Shown here one piece after another: positions 11,992 through 20,497 of a stretch of 35,274 nucleotides of DNA. Both the position numbers and the translations under genes were made by a program. Positions within the stretch are counted from its first letter, which is position 1; each line of letters begins with the position of its first letter. The notes beneath the pieces are model-generated. The model saw nothing but the letters and a program-made list of their open reading frames with translations. It was not told the origin of the DNA and searched no databases. This DNA is from Desulfocapsaceae bacterium (lineage in GTDB: Bacteria; Desulfobacterota; Desulfobulbia; Desulfobulbales; Desulfocapsaceae): NCBI GenBank assembly GCA_031292275.1, contig JARLHL010000076.1, forward strand, positions 1 through 35,274. Direction: 5' to 3'.

Positions 11992-13344
11992 CTATCCCCG
12001 GTCGGCAGCCATCACCAGATCGCTGAGTTCATCGGCAATTTCGTGGATCAGCGCCCGGTCCTGGCCTTCCACCATCACCCGGATCACCGGCTCGGTCCCT
12101 GAGGGTCGCACCAGAATCCGACCGGTATTCCCCAGCCGGGACTCACAGGCCTTCATCGCCTCGGAAAATCCGGGAATGGTATCCACATTCATCCTGCTGG
12201 CGGTACGGACATTTTTCAGGATCTGGGGAAAGCTCTCCATGACGGTGGCCAGTTCGGACAGGGACCTGCCCCGCTTCTTCATGATGGCCAGCAGCTGCAG
12301 GGCCGCCAGGATTCCGTCGCCGGTGGTAATATGATCAAGGAAAATCAGATGGCCGGACTGCTCACCGCCAAAGGAATAGCCCTCCCTGCGCATACACTCG
12401 ACCACATAACGGTCACCGACCCCCGTCCGGACCAGCGAGCCGCCCATCTGCTCCATGGCCTTCTGCAGCCCCATATTGGACATGATGGTCGCCACCAAGG
12501 TCTTTCGGTTCAGCTTCCGCTGTTTCAGGAGCTCTTTGGCACAGATTGCCATAATATGGTCGCCGTCGACGATGTTGCCCTTTTCATCAGAGACGATAAG
12601 CCGGTCACCGTCGCCATCCAAGGCCAACCCGATATCGGCCCCCAGTTCCCTGACCTTGGCGGCCATCAGCTCAGGATGCAGGGCCCCGCACTGGAGGTTG
12701 ATATTCTTGCCGTCCGGATGCACACCCAGCGCGGTGACTTTGGCCCCCAGCTCTTCAAAGACATGAGGGGCCACACCGTAGGTTGCGCCATTGGCACAGT
12801 CAAGGACGATATGAAAGTCGTCCAGGACATAGTCCCGGGGAAAGGTGTTTTTCAGAAAAACGATATACCGTCCCCTGGCATCCTCGATCCTGGCCGCCTT
12901 GCCCACCTCGTCGGCAACGGGACGCAGCGCCTCCATCTTCTGAGAGAAGATCAGATCTTCCATGGAGGCCTCCACCTCATCGGGGAGTTTAAATCCGTCA
13001 TGGGAAAATATCTTGATGCCGTTATCCTGAAAGGGGTTGTGCGAGGCAGAGATGACCACACCGGCATCGGCTCGCATGGAGGTTGTTATAAAAGCAATGC
13101 CCGGAGTCGGCACCGGGCCGACCAGCAGCACATCCACACCCATGGAGCAGATTCCGGCTGCCAGGGCATTTTCTATCATATAACCGGAGACCCTGGTGTC
13201 CTTGCCGATAACAATCCTATGTCTCCTGGCCTGATTCTTCACGGTAAAGGCAATCGCGCGACCGATCTGCATGGCCATCTCAATGGTCATCGGATAGATG
13301 TTGGCAACACCGCGGACCCCGTCCGTTCCAAATAGCTTTCTCAT
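11992..13344 (-). CDS. glmM: Phosphoglucosamine mutase
   Basis: GlmM converts glucosamine-6-phosphate to glucosamine-1-phosphate on the path to UDP-GlcNAc, the precursor of peptidoglycan and lipopolysaccharide. The 450-residue protein has the four-domain alpha-D-phosphohexomutase signatures: start [12 protein letters not shown], the phosphoserine loop ISASHNP (Ser101), the magnesium-binding DGDGD (Asp243, Asp245, Asp247) and the phosphate-binding RPSGTEP near 425. It is the last gene of a minus-strand cluster with cdaA and cdaR; the same gene order is well known in Firmicutes, where CdaA, CdaR and GlmM interact and GlmM restrains the cyclase. The gap from cdaR is 66 bases. Confidence 0.97.
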
Positions 13345-13410
13345 CGAATCCTTGCTGGTTGTAGTGGTGAAATGAGACGAGGCGGGGCGATATCCTTTTC
13401 GCGCTCGTCC

Positions 13411-14382
13411 TTATGGTCTTTTTTCCGGTTCAGGCTTCTTTGGGGCTGGCTTTTTCACCAGGGACACGGATCCAGGCTCGACCTTGACGACCTCCACGGA
13501 CATGGCCGGATCAGTCGGCGTAACCTGTACCTTCAGCCCGTCCTCTCCCGGCTTACCAACGGCTGAAACCGTGAACAGGCTCTTGTAATCCATATCTTTT
13601 TTCATATGCAACTTCGGAATCTTCAAGGTAACCTTCACCTCATCCGGGACGACCTGCTGCAGATAGCCATCGACAGCAAAGCGGACAGGGACATTGGTCA
13701 CCGTCTTCTCCACCACATCATAGCCTATGACAATATCAGCGGTGATGGAGGTCTCGCCGATGAGATCAACCAGGGCAGGTTCGAGATCAAGAGGAATCTG
13801 CTGCTGAACGGATTTGGCCAGGCCACCGATATTGATCGGTATGGTTTTCAGGGACTCAACCTGGGACAGGACGGTCTGCGGTCCGGTGATGGCAATGGTA
13901 TCCGGGGCGATCTGCAGGTTTTTCAAGACATAGCCGGGTGCGACGCTGCCCGTCATCACCGGGGTTACGGAAAATTTTTTCTGGATGAGTTTATCCAGAG
14001 ACAGGATGAGCGAGGAGGGCTGGACCCTCAGGACCTGGATTCCTCTGCCGACAGAGATGGACTTGTTGTCGATGGTAACCACCCTGGTCCCCGGAACTGC
14101 ATCGGAGAGATCCACCTGCCTGGCCGTCCCCTTCTTGCCGATATCAATCAGCAGCGAACGCGGCCCCCGAACCGTCACATCTATATTTTTTTTGAATTTA
14201 TTTGAGATTATCAAATCTTTGGGCATATTGATGATCTCGATGGGTATGGTCACATTCGTGTCGACGGCATCCTGGCCACCGACAAAATACCAGAGCAGTA
14301 TCGCCAGACACAGCGAGATGAACCGCAGAAGCCATTCTTTGGACCACAGCTTTTGAAGATTATGGAATTTCAGCTGTTTCAT
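13411..14382 (-). CDS. cdaR: YbbR-domain protein, CdaR-type regulator of diadenylate cyclase
   Basis: The 323-residue protein has one N-terminal membrane helix (about 17-34, WLLRFISLCLAILLWYFV) and then an extracytoplasmic region with at least three YbbR-type repeats of 75-90 residues. Each repeat is a beta-rich unit with blocks such as VTVRGP and IAITGP. The C-terminus ends in a lysine- and proline-rich tail. CdaR proteins sit in the membrane with the diadenylate cyclase CdaA and modulate its activity. The start overlaps the cdaA stop by four bases (ATGA), which fits a stoichiometric complex. Function is assigned from the domain and the neighbouring genes. Confidence 0.9.
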   Translation of the reverse strand: MKQLKFHNLQKLWSKEWLLRFISLCLAILLWYFVGGQDAVDTNVTIPIEIINMPKDLIISNKFKKNIDVTVRGPRSLLIDIGKKGTARQVDLSDAVPGTRVVTIDNKSISVGRGIQVLRVQPSSLILSLDKLIQKKFSVTPVMTGSVAPGYVLKNLQIAPDTIAITGPQTVLSQVESLKTIPINIGGLAKSVQQQIPLDLEPALVDLIGETSITADIVIGYDVVEKTVTNVPVRFAVDGYLQQVVPDEVKVTLKIPKLHMKKDMDYKSLFTVSAVGKPGEDGLKVQVTPTDPAMSVEVVKVEPGSVSLVKKPAPKKPEPEKRP

Positions 14383-15170
14383 GACCGATTAATCCAATTT
14401 TTCCATGTATAGATAGGTCCTTCCTTACCGACGAAAATCGCCCTCAGACTGTTCTTCAAGGTCAGCTCGTCACCGACTGTCGTCAGCGCCCCGTGCTGGA
14501 CCAGGGAGACTTCCTGGGTCTCCTCTGAAACCACCAGCACCACGGCATCGGTCTCCTCCGAAAGGCCGAGGGCGGCCCGGTGTCTGGTACCGAAACGTTT
14601 ATTAATATACGGATTCTGGGTAAGCGGCAGGATACAGCCGGCTGTCTGGATCCTGCCTTTCGTCACAATGACACCGCCGTCATGGAGCGGCGAAACGGGC
14701 ATGAATATGGAGATAAGCAGCTCTTTGGTCAAATAGGCGTCAAGGTCAAAACCCGATTCAACATAGTCCCGCAATCCCATCTCGCGTTCAATGATGATCA
14801 GGGCGCCGATGCGCCGTTTGGAAAGGTAGAAGATCGCACGAATCACCTCATCCAGTTCTTTTTCTTGCACGTCGGAGTTTTTCTGGAAAGGCGACTTGCC
14901 GACCTGGGTCAGCGCCCGCCGGATATCCTGCTGAAAAACAATGATGATGATGAGAAGAATGGAGCTCAAAAAGGTCTTCATCATCCACATGAGGACCGTC
15001 AGATCCAGGACGGTGGCCATAAAATAGACGATAGTCAGCACCACGATCCCGAGAAGCATCTGGACCGAACGAGTCCCTCGTATTATCGACAAAAGTTGAT
15101 AAATAACAAAGGCGACGACCAGGATATCGAGAATATCCTGCCAGCGTATGATATTGAATATTTCTAACAT
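14379..15170 (-). CDS. cdaA: Diadenylate cyclase CdaA (c-di-AMP synthase)
   Basis: CdaA makes cyclic di-AMP from two ATP at the inner face of the membrane. The 263-residue protein has three N-terminal membrane helices (about 11-30, 36-57, 62-80) followed by a DAC domain at about 95-245. The catalytic motifs are PLHDGG (Asp164) and GTRHRAA (Arg196-His197-Arg198). The usual DGA motif reads DGG here, a conservative change next to the catalytic aspartate. The gene is translationally coupled to cdaR and followed by glmM, the standard c-di-AMP gene set. Upstream on the same strand, 171 bases away, is a potassium channel with an RCK_C domain, a type of domain known to bind c-di-AMP in other bacteria. 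Confidence 0.95.
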   Translation of the reverse strand: MLEIFNIIRWQDILDILVVAFVIYQLLSIIRGTRSVQMLLGIVVLTIVYFMATVLDLTVLMWMMKTFLSSILLIIIIVFQQDIRRALTQVGKSPFQKNSDVQEKELDEVIRAIFYLSKRRIGALIIIEREMGLRDYVESGFDLDAYLTKELLISIFMPVSPLHDGGVIVTKGRIQTAGCILPLTQNPYINKRFGTRHRAALGLSEETDAVVLVVSEETQEVSLVQHGALTTVGDELTLKNSLRAIFVGKEGPIYTWKNWINRS

Positions 15171-15341
15171 CGGGGAAAAACGAGGTCACGTTAACGGTTA
15201 GTGCATCACGGAGGGGTCCCTCTGCCGGGACACTTCGAAAACCCGGCTTCACCGCTCTTTTCTGCCTGTTCCTACAGTGTACAAAATTTTTTACTTCTTT
15301 TCATCGAAAATTTTTTTGAAATTTCAGGTTTTTCGAATTCA
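15171..15341 (-). other. Intergenic region between K+ channel gene and cdaA
   Basis: These 171 bases separate the channel gene from cdaA on the same strand. The part next to the channel stop is very AT-rich and contains the palindrome TGAAATTTCA flanked by CGAAAA and TTTTCG, which could form a weak terminator on either strand. I see no convincing -35/-10 pair and no recognisable riboswitch. It is therefore unclear whether cdaA is read from the channel transcript or from its own promoter. Confidence 0.35.
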
Positions 15342-16703
15342 TTAAAGAATAGGCCTGCCCGACTGGAGATGACTTTTGACAATACCGATTATTTCCTGGG
15401 CATCAGGGCTCTTGACGACGACGGTATCGGCGCCGGACTCCAGGGCCTTTTTCCTGGTTTCATCGTGGTTATCGGCCGTGAAGAGAAAAAGTTTTATGTC
15501 CTTGCCGATATCCTGCTCCCGAATCTGGCGACAGACATCGAATCCCGAGATGTCAGGGAGCATCAAATCGACAACCGCCGCGTCAGGCTTCTCCTCCAGG
15601 ATCAGTTCATAGCCTTCCCTGCCGTTGACAGCGGTTATGATGTTGAATCCCGCCTTCTGAAACAGCCTGGTGTACAGACGCCGGATAACCGGATTGTCAT
15701 CGATCAGGACGATCTTCTTGGGCTGCTGGGTCCTGGCCTCCGTCATAACCACCGGATGTTCTCCGCAGACCAGCAACTCGTCTCCCATCTGCAGCCGGAC
15801 ATCAAGGGTCGGCATCAGGATATCTCTGCCCTCCCTGCGCATTCCCACGATGGTACCGCTGAGAATCTGGTTTGCAGTTTCCAACGCATGCGAGGCAAGT
15901 CCGGATTTTTCGTTGACCATGATCCAGTGCGGGACGTTCCCGATAACGCTCTCCCGGCTGTCTCTGATCTTGTCCTCCATGGTCTTCATCAGGATCCTGT
16001 CCGCCACACGCCTTCCCGCCGAGGCGTAGGGTGAGATAACGGAATCGGCACCGGCCCGCAGGATCCTTGATTCCGAGGAGGCAACCTCAGTCCTGGCGAC
16101 AATATGCAGGGTCGGATTCAACTCCCGCGCCGTCAGAACGGCACAGAGATTATCCGGATCGGAATCCAGAAGGGCCAGGAGGGCACCAGCCCTTTTGATG
16201 CCAGCCTCAATCAGGGTTTCTTCCCGGGTCGCATCCCCCGCCAGATAATTATAGCCCTGTTCGGCCAGGATCCTCAGATGTTCTTCGGACCGGTCAATGA
16301 CGACGAAATCGACGCCGATACTGTGAAAACGGTCCGCTGAGGCGGCCCCGACCCGGCCATGGCCGCAGATGATATAGTGGCCGTCGAGTTTCTGTATCTT
16401 TTTTTCCATGGCTTTTTTCCTCAAATTCGGATTCGAGGCCCTTTCGATCATTGATTCGGTGAAGGCATGGGCGGCAAAGGCCAGACTTCCAACCCCGAAG
16501 AGAATGAGAAAAATGGTAAAGACCCGCCCCGCCTCGGACAGAGGATGAACCTCTCCGAATCCAACCGTTGATATGGTTATGACAGTCATATAGAAAGCAT
16601 CCAGGGGCGGGAAATGCTCAATCTTCACATATCCGACCGTGCCGACCCCCAGAAAAAAAAGGGTCACTGCCAGGGCAACCCATATGCGTCGTCGACTGTC
16701 CAT
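15342..16703 (-). CDS. Two-helix K+ channel with RCK domains fused to a receiver domain
   Basis: This 453-residue protein joins three modules. Residues 8-85 form a two-helix potassium pore: helix at 8-28, pore loop with the filter TVGFGE (46-51), second helix at 61-82. Residues 108-325 are an RCK unit: an N-terminal Rossmann fold with the nucleotide motif GHGRVG (114-119) and an acidic strand end VVID, then a TrkA_C-like lobe at about 245-315. Residues 330-450 are a complete response-regulator receiver domain with acidic pair Asp335/Asp336, phospho-acceptor Asp379 in VVDLMLPD, switch Thr409 and Lys431. So gating could depend on potassium, on an RCK ligand (NAD(H), ATP or c-di-AMP) and on phosphorylation. 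No histidine kinase gene lies nearby. It is upstream of cdaA-cdaR-glmM on the same strand and divergent from the DUF748 gene. The ribosome binding site is weak. Confidence 0.88.
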   Translation of the reverse strand: MDSRRRIWVALAVTLFFLGVGTVGYVKIEHFPPLDAFYMTVITISTVGFGEVHPLSEAGRVFTIFLILFGVGSLAFAAHAFTESMIERASNPNLRKKAMEKKIQKLDGHYIICGHGRVGAASADRFHSIGVDFVVIDRSEEHLRILAEQGYNYLAGDATREETLIEAGIKRAGALLALLDSDPDNLCAVLTARELNPTLHIVARTEVASSESRILRAGADSVISPYASAGRRVADRILMKTMEDKIRDSRESVIGNVPHWIMVNEKSGLASHALETANQILSGTIVGMRREGRDILMPTLDVRLQMGDELLVCGEHPVVMTEARTQQPKKIVLIDDNPVIRRLYTRLFQKAGFNIITAVNGREGYELILEEKPDAAVVDLMLPDISGFDVCRQIREQDIGKDIKLFLFTADNHDETRKKALESGADTVVVKSPDAQEIIGIVKSHLQSGRPIL

Positions 16704-16939
16704 ACCGATAATCTAAGAGAGACTCCAAATCTTTTGTCGGATCACATAAATACCTTTGCATATCTTTATCAGGTAAATAACATAATTAAAAGGTCCCTTT
16801 TCACATTATTCTGTTATAATGCATGCTGATTGCGTTCCTGCACACTGCCCCGGCTTATCAGGGCGGCAGACACTATTCTCACGCGGATTCCAACCGAAGA
16901 GAGAGCCTGATCTCATTTTTTCAGCGACCTACAAAACCA

Positions 16940-19900
16940 ATGCCAGACCACTTCAGTTCCATCCCCATTGAACACGACACAGCCCCCCGCCCTCCCAAGA
17001 GCAAAAGACCGCCGAGAGAGAAGAGGCCAGCTCGGGGAGAAAAGAAACGAAAACTTCCGCCCTTAAACCCCTACGTGCTCTCTGTCCTGATCGTGGTCCT
17101 TCTTGTAGCTTTATACTCCGGCGCAGGCTTTGCGCTAATCCCCGTCCTGCTGCAATCGCATCTTGCTCAATACCTGCGGCAGAACACTGACATGGGCCTG
17201 GAAATCGGGAGTGTACAGTTCAACCCCTTCACCTTTCATATTCATCTTACAGATGTCACGGTCAATCATGAAATCGCCGCCGGAAAGGAGCCGGCATTTC
17301 TGAATGCCGGCGACATCATGATTGCGTTCTCCCCCCTTTCTGCGCTCAGGAAGACCTTTGTCTGCAACGAATTCAGGATTAGAAAACTGACGATCAACAT
17401 CATCCGCTACAACGACAGCAGGTATAATTTTTCCCAGGCCCTCACCCCCTCGGGCACCGGAACTGCCGGAGACGCCATCCAACTGCCCTTTCTCTATTCC
17501 ATCAACAACATCTCCGTCACCGACAGTTCCGCCATCTTCGATGACCGGGTCTCGGGAAAGATTCACAAGGCCGAAAAGATAGAGCTGACCCTGCCGACAC
17601 TTGCCAACACGCCGTATCAAGCCCAAACCTCCGTGACACCTGCTTTTTCCGCAGTGATCAACGGCAGCCCGGTGCAATTGACCAGCCAGGCAGCCATGCC
17701 CGGCACAGCGGAGGGCGATCAGACCCGGCTCACTTTCGACCTGCACGCCGTAGACCTCCCCCTGTACTTCGGCTATCTCCCCTCCTCCCTGCCCGTCCAG
17801 CTTGCCAAAGGTACGGCGGATGGGCAGATGCAGGTATCCTTCACTCCGGATAAGGATCAGACCAAACGCCTGACCATCCTCTTCCAGATGGACATGAAGG
17901 ATATCGAACTGCAGACACCGGACCGTGCCCTCAGCGCCTCCATCCCCGCGGCCCGCATTGAGGGCGACCTGCAACCCTTTAGCGGGGATCTCCGCCTGCA
18001 AAACATCGCGTTTCACGGACCGGACGTCAGCCTGCAGTCCACTTTCTCCGAACAGACGCTGGACAGCCTGCTGCCGACCGCAGAGAAAATCACGACCAAA
18101 GACGGGGCGCAACTGGCCAGGCCTCTCTTCACCTGCACCCTTTTCACCCTGGACAACGGCAGCCTGCATCTTGCCAGGACAAAGGAAATAGGAAGTGCTG
18201 ACAAGACCTACCAGGCCCTCAAGCTGAGCATTAAAAATTACAGCAATCAGCCTCAGACGACCACGGACAGCCCGGAAAACCGATGCAGCTTCACCCTCGG
18301 CGGTGAGCAGGCCGGCCCCGCCGCCACCTTCTCATGGCAGGGAGAGCTGGACGAAAAGAACACCGCCAGGGGGACCTTGCAGCTCAACCGATTTCCCGCC
18401 TCCTTTTTCACCTCGTATTTTACCGACGGGAAGGACACCGACATGAGCGGGACAGCCGACATGAAGGGCAGTCTGTCCATTCAGCGCAACCCGGGAGAGA
18501 AAAAACGGTTTTCAATAAGGATCACCGAAGGGCTGGTAAAGTTTTCCAATCTCGGGCTGGCGGAAAAGAAAAATGAGTGGCTGCGTGCCGAGAGCATGAC
18601 TCTCGGACCGATAGATTCGAAAAACAACAGTCTCGACATCGGCAACATCTTCCTCCAGAATGCCACGCTCACCCTGTCTCAAGACAAATTCCCCGGTTTT
18701 CTTGACTCACTGCTGAAAAAAGACCCCAGCTGCAGGGTGCATGGGATTGACCTTTCTGGAAATATCATTCTCAAATCCGGCGAAAACACCAAAAGCCCCC
18801 TGGTCCTCAGCGATGTCAGCCTGCAGGCCAACGGCCTGGAAAAGGATACCAGGGACAAGGGAAATGTCGCCTTCACCGGCAAGGCGGGTCAATCCGGAGA
18901 AATCAAGGCTAAAGGCACAGTCGCCTTAGGCCCTTTCAGGGCCTCGCTCGCCGTGGAATTCTCCGGGCTGCAGTCCAAAGAACTTCTGCCCTGGTATACA
19001 GATTCGCCCTTTCTCCTGGAAGGCCAGGCGCGGCTGGAAGGGGTGGGCCGCCTCACCTATCCGGAAAACGTTTTCAAAGGCTCGCTGCGCATCTCAGAGG
19101 CCCGATTTGAAAACAAGGCGGCGAAATCAGCGCTTGCCTGGACCAGCGCCAGTTTTCAAGACGTCACCTTCACGAAAAATCCCTTTCAATTCAGCAGCGC
19201 CGCAGCCCAGATCGACAGCCCCGTCCTGAACTACACCCAGGCAGACGAAAAGAGCAGCGTCTTTGAACAACTGGCCCTCTTTATCAAAGGGCTTCTTCCC
19301 GAACGCGGCCCTGCGGAAAAGGCCACTCGCGGCCCCGACCTGGAGATCAAGGCAGTCACTCTGACCAAGGGAACCCTTACCTACAGGGATCAGCGGCTCT
19401 CTCCGCCCTGGCAGCAGGAGATATCAGCCGTTGCAGGAGAAATCCAGCGGCTCTCTTTTCCCGCTACGGCAGAAGGCATTGCCTATTCATTTTCCGGGAC
19501 ACTTGCCGGCAAGCCCCTGACCTTTGAGGGCACGGCCGATCTGTCCGCAACGCCTCTTGCAGTGCAATCCACCATCAACATGGCGGATTTACCCCTCTCC
19601 ATGTTCAAAGAACAACTGCCGCCCCTTGTCAATATTGACCCGGGCAAGGGCGCCTTCGACCTGGCCCTGCAGGATACCTGGAAAGGCGGAAAGGAAAATT
19701 TTGAGGCCCACTATTTTTTTCACGGCATCTCTCCCACCTCCCCTTCGGCGGACACGGCCCTCCCCCTGGCCCTTCTTACCGACAACCGGGATATCTATGA
19801 ATTCACCCTGTCCTTAAAGGATTCTTCTGAGAATGCCCCCTTATTCGCGGAGACAGTAAAATATTTCAAAAGGATAGTTGTCAAATCCGTCGTCGCGCCG

Positions 19901-20497
19901 CTGCTCCTGACCAATGAGACTTTTTCCAGACTGGCTGTTGACGACACGCCGGATTTTTCCGATGGCACCGGAATCCTGTCGGAAAAGGGCAGGACCAAAC
20001 TGACCCTGTATCGCGATCTGCTTGCCGCCCATCCGCGGATCAAGCTCCTTATTACCGGTATGGTGGATATGACCACCGACAAAAAGGCCATGGAGGACAG
20101 GCTGAAGGAGGCCGAGGCCAGGCGGGTTGAAAAGGAAAACAGCAGACGGTCGCAGGAACTGCAGAAACTCCAGAGCCAGCGGCAGCGGCAGGGCCAGCAG
20201 AAGGAAGGCATAGAGGAAAAGGATATCCCAGCGGAGGAGCTGACCAAGTATGCCCCGATCCTCCCGCAGACCGTAGTGGTATCCGATAAGGCCATGCGTG
20301 AACTGGCCGCACAGCGCTCGGACGCGGCCTATGATTTCCTGACCTCTGAGCTGGGGATCGGCAAAGAACGGGTGCAGAGACAGACGCCTGAGCAGACTGC
20401 GGAATCGGCAAACCGGGTGGGTATCACCCTCAGGCCCCTGGCCGCGCCGCCAGACGCATCGCCCCCGCCGAACCGGATGCCTGAGGAAAAGCCCTGA
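16940..20497 (+). CDS. DUF748 (AsmA-like) large envelope protein
   Basis: This very large protein (1185 residues from the chosen start) has a basic, proline-rich cytoplasmic N-terminus, one membrane anchor at about residues 40-68 and a long periplasmic region of beta-rich segments matching the DUF748 pattern, such as the early GLEIGSVQFNPFTFHIHL stretch. DUF748 proteins are related to AsmA/TamB-like proteins thought to bridge the periplasm and move phospholipids or support outer-membrane assembly. The last 200 residues contain an OmpA-like helix-strand piece (KLLITGMVD), a highly charged coiled segment and a proline-rich end, usual for this family. The frame is open back to an ATG at 16823, but that start overlaps a TATAAT-like box (16815-16820) and adds 39 residues without hydrophobic or family character, so I prefer 16940. 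The gene is monocistronic and converges with the TIGR03790 gene. Confidence 0.82.
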   Translation: MPDHFSSIPIEHDTAPRPPKSKRPPREKRPARGEKKRKLPPLNPYVLSVLIVVLLVALYSGAGFALIPVLLQSHLAQYLRQNTDMGLEIGSVQFNPFTFHIHLTDVTVNHEIAAGKEPAFLNAGDIMIAFSPLSALRKTFVCNEFRIRKLTINIIRYNDSRYNFSQALTPSGTGTAGDAIQLPFLYSINNISVTDSSAIFDDRVSGKIHKAEKIELTLPTLANTPYQAQTSVTPAFSAVINGSPVQLTSQAAMPGTAEGDQTRLTFDLHAVDLPLYFGYLPSSLPVQLAKGTADGQMQVSFTPDKDQTKRLTILFQMDMKDIELQTPDRALSASIPAARIEGDLQPFSGDLRLQNIAFHGPDVSLQSTFSEQTLDSLLPTAEKITTKDGAQLARPLFTCTLFTLDNGSLHLARTKEIGSADKTYQALKLSIKNYSNQPQTTTDSPENRCSFTLGGEQAGPAATFSWQGELDEKNTARGTLQLNRFPASFFTSYFTDGKDTDMSGTADMKGSLSIQRNPGEKKRFSIRITEGLVKFSNLGLAEKKNEWLRAESMTLGPIDSKNNSLDIGNIFLQNATLTLSQDKFPGFLDSLLKKDPSCRVHGIDLSGNIILKSGENTKSPLVLSDVSLQANGLEKDTRDKGNVAFTGKAGQSGEIKAKGTVALGPFRASLAVEFSGLQSKELLPWYTDSPFLLEGQARLEGVGRLTYPENVFKGSLRISEARFENKAAKSALAWTSASFQDVTFTKNPFQFSSAAAQIDSPVLNYTQADEKSSVFEQLALFIKGLLPERGPAEKATRGPDLEIKAVTLTKGTLTYRDQRLSPPWQQEISAVAGEIQRLSFPATAEGIAYSFSGTLAGKPLTFEGTADLSATPLAVQSTINMADLPLSMFKEQLPPLVNIDPGKGAFDLALQDTWKGGKENFEAHYFFHGISPTSPSADTALPLALLTDNRDIYEFTLSLKDSSENAPLFAETVKYFKRIVVKSVVAPLLLTNETFSRLAVDDTPDFSDGTGILSEKGRTKLTLYRDLLAAHPRIKLLITGMVDMTTDKKAMEDRLKEAEARRVEKENSRRSQELQKLQSQRQRQGQQKEGIEEKDIPAEELTKYAPILPQTVVVSDKAMRELAAQRSDAAYDFLTSELGIGKERVQRQTPEQTAESANRVGITLRPLAAPPDASPPPNRMPEEKP

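Follow-up and report, generated by a model that had tools for sequence, protein, structure and literature searches.

Among solved structures, the nearest relatives of the protein described here are two RCK-gated K+ channels. MthK, a Ca2+-gated K+ channel (PDB 1lnq and others), shares with it a pore of two transmembrane (2-TM) helices, an RCK_N and an RCK_C domain, and aligns with residues 13-315 (6e-25), but has no receiver domain. The second best solved relative is GsuK (PDB 4gx0-4gx5), a TrkA-domain RCK-gated channel from Geobacter; its chain differs in giving two RCK_C matches and, again, no receiver. Receiver (REC) domains are familiar chiefly from transcription factors and enzymes, which they switch. 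Those of RR468, PhoP and YycF have the same fold and the same five phospho-switch residues as the receiver discussed below, but receivers of their type stand alone or before a DNA-binding domain, whereas this one is fused behind an ion channel. An RCK_C domain is also what the channel has in common with KtrA, KtrC, KhtT, CpaA and BusR, whose RCK_C domains are described as c-di-AMP receptors in PMC8517857.

Domain organization of the channel

The window, a stretch of 35,274 nucleotides from a Desulfocapsaceae bacterium, encodes a protein in which a K+ channel is followed by an RCK unit and then by a complete receiver domain (Table 1). The sequence-only reading had proposed this layout, and a Pfam domain search bears it out; TVGFGE, D335/D336, D379, T409 and K431 all lie where that reading had placed them. 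The open reading frame runs from an ATG to a stop codon without interruption. With a filter of the pattern TVG(Y/F)G(D/E) and two transmembrane helices the protein falls, by its sequence, among the 2-TM RCK-gated channels, and its fused RCK_N and RCK_C domains, the latter matching TrkA_C at the cut-off, place it with the alignment over residues 13-315 in the MthK-like class.

Table 1. Features of the channel gene and of the adjoining cdaA locus. Positions are those of the window.
Feature	Residues	Positions	Strand	Basis or remark
K+ channel-RCK-REC gene	453 aa	15342..16703	(-)	
Ion_trans_2 pore, two TM helices and pore loop	13-85	16449..16667	(-)	Pfam 3.2e-16; closest solved chains MthK
Selectivity filter TVGFGE	46-51	16551..16568	(-)	
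TrkA_N / RCK_N Rossmann unit with GHGRVG and acidic D137	110-225	16029..16376	(-)	Pfam 4.6e-32
TrkA_C / RCK_C	260-315	15759..15926	(-)	Pfam 3.9e-6; borderline, 27.1 bits against the Pfam cut-off of 27
Response_reg receiver domain	331-442	15378..15713	(-)	Pfam 1.4e-23; Foldseek matches to receiver domains
REC helix alpha1, candidate kinase-docking or gating-ring interface	338-350	15654..15692	(-)	
Asp379, predicted phospho-acceptor	379	15567..15569	(-)	49/49; counterpart, by alignment, of residue 53 in the solved receiver RR468
Channel-cdaA gap, 171 bases		15171..15341	(-)	no terminator-like site on (-)
cdaA, diadenylate cyclase		14379..15170	(-)	TIGR00159 1.1e-70
ybbR/cdaR-like gene		13411..14382	(-)	Pfam YbbR 5.7e-17
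glmM		11992..13344	(-)	TIGR01455 4.1e-183
Divergent DUF748/AsmA-like gene, upstream boundary of the block		16823..20497	(+)	Pfam DUF748 4.2e-94

A frameshift or an assembly error joining two genes could in principle produce such a fusion. The same layout is present in 48 other distinct sequences from other assemblies, all 49 falling into one clade, and we found nothing that speaks for an artefact, which leaves it a negligible chance. Across this family the filter begins with TVG in 43 of the 48 readable members and with SVG in the other 5. Residue 50 is other than glycine in 4 of these 48 and in 14 of 43 related channels lacking a receiver, and one REC-fused member (L045:6001-7383) has TVGYSA in place of TVGYGE. 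In RCK_N, the three glycines are kept in 49/49 sequences, and residue 137 is likewise always E or D. Two single-chain AlphaFold models, a first one (pTM 0.33) and one of RCK_C-REC (pTM 0.59, with a low-confidence linker), are too weak to place the receiver.

Distribution and phylogeny

Relatives comprising both the channel and the receiver occur in 11 of 58 near relatives and in 44 of the 242 genomes sampled within the order, the window's own genome being counted in each; two of the 44 order members are incomplete, one at a contig end and one at masked bases. A draw from the phylum gave 7 positive genomes out of 395 (own genome included), 4 of them outside the order. Bit scores drop sharply, from at least 550 for REC-fused proteins to about 300 or less for REC-less channels. 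The distribution beyond the phylum rests on a pattern scan of named genome contigs, in which 15 of 17 loci proved to be channel-RCK-REC and all 17 carry deltaproteobacterial, Desulfo-genus or unspecified proteobacterial titles. On viral contigs no channel-REC relative was found, two loci matching the REC part only, nor was one found on plasmids, where four records cover at most 70% of the query.

After removal of duplicates the family comprises 49 distinct sequences, the window's included; one of them is without residues 1-74 (contig end) and another without the end of the receiver (masked bases). For one member (L049) the contig title reads Desulfopila sp. IMCC35006, with no MAG label. The channel-RCK-REC protein is a real, conserved family in a sulfur-cycling bacterial group. 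In a tree of the channel core, built from the 49 REC-fused and 43 REC-less sequences and midpoint-rooted, the REC-fused channels group together as a single clade (support 1.0, against 0.57 on the paralogue side). Read from this tree, a single fusion event would be the simplest explanation, not a proven one.

A search of the open-licence literature, which does not prove novelty, turned up no description of a channel-RCK-receiver protein. Both the channel class and the switch are known, but their combination is one that we did not find described. We expect that such proteins very likely already lie unremarked in protein databases.

The receiver domain and its predicted input

The receiver has the acidic pair, phospho-accepting Asp, Thr/Ser and Lys of two-component receivers: D335, D336, D379 and T409 are kept in all 49 sequences and K431 in 48, the remaining one being cut by masked bases. 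HPt domains are partners of receivers in phosphorelays, and one homologue (L178:5945-7786, G301:C17; 614 aa) continues behind the receiver into such a domain (PF01627, 1.1e-9, above the cut-off), giving the order channel-RCK-REC-HPt. It is the only HPt fusion among the 49 sequences, and its HPt tail matched no solved structure at E 0.1.

The helices of the receiver vary to different degrees. Over the 49 sequences the entropy of alpha1 is 0.54 bits, against 1.42-2.05 for alpha2 to alpha5, and in subsamples of 10 from the nearest-20 set it is 0.12 bits, against 1.38 for alpha4 and 1.12 for alpha5. The corresponding values in an OmpR-type control of 10 sequences are 0.81, 0.48 and 0.43; this control is a single family, with two members from the window's own genome and the rest from its relatives, and on the whole its sequences resemble one another more than those of the test set do (0.52 versus 0.77 for REC entropy). 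In an alignment with RR468, the four positions changed in the rewired receiver of PDB 4ja2 correspond to V339, I340, L343 and L347, which are kept in 48, 49, 49 and 48 of the 49 sequences, respectively. As judged from these alignments, an alpha1 that varies so little would suit a kinase or phosphotransferase partner that stays the same. The conserved helix could alternatively be an intramolecular contact to the gating ring, for which R289, R290 and D294 of RCK_C are candidates for the partner surface; these residues are kept in 17/17 sequences of a smaller set, but are less than universal among the 49.

Together, the intact phospho-residues, the HPt-bearing homologue and the unusually fixed alpha1 favour a putative phosphorylation input from a histidine kinase, as the sequence-only reading had proposed. 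That the receiver instead serves for structure or docking and has lost its need for phosphorylation seems decidedly improbable to us: the freely varying alpha4/alpha5 face beside a fixed alpha1 would suit such a role, but nothing would then oblige the domain to keep its phospho-switch residues, and these positions are kept even though identity to the window's receiver drops as low as 0.52 among 17 sequences. The signal might also run the other way, with the RCK ring sensing the nucleotide or ion state, the receiver reporting it into a phosphorelay and the channel serving as the sensor. The HPt domain downstream of the receiver in G301 agrees with such an arrangement, and the conserved alpha1 would suit a histidine phosphotransferase as a docking site no less than a kinase. 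However, receivers normally act as inputs to the domain to which they are fused, the conserved filter indicates that the protein should conduct, and HPt is present in only 1/49 sequences; we regard this reversal as improbable.

Among 24 open reading frames of the window that were scanned, Pfam identified no kinase gene (HisKA or HATPase). In other genomes the hunt for kinases was by neighbourhood and not systematic, Pfam being run on 7 neighbouring proteins only. Near the REC-channel gene of G037 lies a histidine kinase (L057:3260-4984), and near that of G618 lie two hybrid histidine kinases (L177:9002-11329 and 12330-13988); all three are possible partners. Clusters of neighbouring genes, computed for 28 of 29 channel loci (L169, with no channel match at the threshold, was left out), show that the neighbours differ between families.

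Gene order at the cdaA locus

Downstream of the channel, cdaA, ybbR and glmM adjoin on one strand and constitute a cdaA-cdaR-glmM locus, with cdaA providing the only diadenylate cyclase (DAC) match in the window's own genome. The distance of 171 bases between the channel and cdaA, and their common strand, are as the sequence-only reading had given them. DAC matches are found in 58/58 near relatives, and the presence of the cyclase is therefore uninformative about the channel.

We compared channel places with DAC places in 49 genomes, 24 of the window's family and 25 from elsewhere. Within the family, cdaA follows the channel directly, on the same strand, in 18/24 genomes, or in 19/24 if G021 is included, where two overlapping contigs make the link; these agree over the first 60 bases tested, and their channel ends differ by at least one residue. 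Channel and cdaA are apart in four further genomes (G199, G181, G244 and G015); in G015 the DUF748 gene adjoins cdaA, leaving no space for the channel between them. The remaining family genome, G207, is not judgeable (contig end, no DAC found). Outside the family, the linkage was found in none of the 25 genomes, of which 21 were fully judged; the other four are G219, G158 and G618, with no DAC match at the threshold, and G148, in which the contig ends after the channel. The proximity that had been noted is real in most of the window's family but was not found in the genomes surveyed elsewhere. The channel is not a general member of the cdaA-cdaR-glmM locus, and its linkage with cdaA is a lineage-specific gene order. 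This order is kept across five genera of the family; the four unlinked genomes form one group in the tree, so that a single gain and a single loss of the gene order explain the data without repeated recruitment.

RCK_C and c-di-AMP

The linkage bears on a further proposal of the sequence-only reading, that the channel integrates phosphorylation of the receiver with c-di-AMP bound at the RCK_C dimer and supplied by cdaA. In PMC10117811, the signature of c-di-AMP-binding RCK_C domains is given as (I/L)(I/L)X2DX1RX5N(I/L)(I/L). Its exact form, as given there, is absent from all 65 REC-fused sequences (duplicates included) and from all 43 REC-less channels. Relative to these REC-less channels, every one of the 49 distinct REC-fused sequences has a two-residue deletion, between residues 278 and 279, at the arginine of this signature. 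The best partial matches to the signature cover 2-4 of 7 positions in REC-fused proteins and 2-5 of 7 in the paralogues, so that the groups overlap; by the same count the known receptors KtrA, KtrC, KhtT and BusR have 7, 6, 4 and 2 of the 7 (among the RCK_C proteins of the window's own genome, L196 and L197 were left out of this comparison). Because BusR binds c-di-AMP with 2/7 positions, the absence of the signature lowers the probability of binding and does not exclude it.

Profile comparisons separate the two groups of channels. With an RCK_C profile of 14 REC-fused rows, the best solved matches are KtrA (4xtt, 0.0097), BusR (0.033) and CpaA (0.13), all with weak E-values and, for KtrA and CpaA, with alignments that span half of RCK_C or less. 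The REC-less profile, also of 14 rows and including one from the window's own genome, gives far better matches, to KhtT (3.1e-13) and then KtrC and KtrA. A single-sequence match of RCK_C to BusR (E 1.7) was dismissed as insignificant. The pocket residues of BusR, as listed in PMC8517857, were compared by eye with the RCK_C alignments and lent no support to binding.

The REC-less paralogue in the window's own genome (G000:C52:99258-100199; L103:6220-7212) shares pore, RCK_N and RCK_C with the channel and is 35% identical to it; it and its relatives lack the receiver and carry an arginine at the site of the deletion in 40/43 sequences. With the KhtT/KtrC-like RCK_C profile of its family, the paralogue is a more promising candidate for gating by c-di-AMP.

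Conservation within the REC-fused family is likewise lowest in RCK_C, with a mean identity to the window of 0.44, versus 0.68 for RCK_N and 0.64 for REC (17 sequences). Integration of both signals thus has on its side the gene order in 19/24 family genomes, the identity of the best solved matches, which are c-di-AMP receptors even if the matches are weak, and the precedent of BusR, which binds without the signature. Against it stand the 2-4 of 7 signature positions and the deleted arginine position in 49/49 sequences, the low conservation of RCK_C, the far better profile matches of the REC-less channels (in which, too, the exact signature is found in 0/43) and the want of linkage outside the family. 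On this balance we hold it to be unlikely; binding of c-di-AMP by RCK_C finds no support in these comparisons, and the channel-RCK-REC protein most likely does not bind it.

Two matches to the c-di-AMP riboswitch family RF00379 lie elsewhere in the genome (G000:C45:58100-58240 and G000:C109:49010-49146), one directly before a gene for the K+ transporter Kup and the other about 300 bases before an SLT transglycosylase-domain gene; matches to this family occur in 10 of 58 genomes, the window's own included. The match before kup suggests that c-di-AMP probably acts on K+ uptake at the RNA level. The channel and cdaA may then be linked through cytoplasmic K+, which would make direct binding unnecessary.

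Proposed mechanism

The reading that we favour, and consider fairly probable, is that a phosphorelay directly controls this RCK-gated K+ channel, without c-di-AMP binding and with cdaA acting in parallel. The 2-TM channel would assemble, presumably as a tetramer, around an MthK-like RCK gating ring, each subunit ending in a receiver on a short flexible linker. Asp379 would be phosphorylated by a histidine kinase or phosphorelay, of whatever identity, and the gate would be biased, toward either opening or closing, according to which receivers around the ring are phosphorylated. The RCK_N nucleotide site, presumably for NAD or a nucleotide of the ATP/ADP class, would stay as a second, metabolic input. 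The neighbouring cdaA would serve the same K+ and turgor programme in parallel, with c-di-AMP acting on K+ uptake through the kup riboswitch. More tentatively, and with somewhat less than even confidence, we suggest that the K+ channel became a direct output of the phosphorelay when RCK_C lost its ligand pocket, through the two-residue deletion and the loss of the arginine, and control passed, once, to the fused receiver in the family's ancestor.

With a receiver as part of a K+ channel, bacteria would possess a direct pathway from a kinase to the membrane potential. If this is true, the response of ion flux and membrane potential to a sensor kinase would take seconds and bypass transcription, and the protein would serve as a natural model for designing a channel gated by phosphorylation. 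The REC-less paralogue, as a point of comparison, would make the exchange of ligand control for phospho-control testable in one group of organisms.

The channel-cdaA gap and an atypical family member

In 12 relatives the gap between the channel and cdaA measures 107-462 bases. Two blocks ahead of cdaA in this gap, TTTGTACACTG and TAACCGTTAA, are common to the window and its close relatives L052 and L038, and the TTTGTACACTG block might be an internal promoter; consensus scans placed no sigma-70-like promoter on it in the window or in L052, and the numbers of promoter-like and terminator-like sites in the window are about those in shuffled sequence. An Rfam scan of the window returned one tRNA only, and thus no known riboswitch before the channel or cdaA.

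One REC-channel, L170 (G158:C33), falls inside the linked clade of the window's family and belongs to a genome of another family that has no DAC match; either horizontal transfer or a misbinned contig would account for its position.
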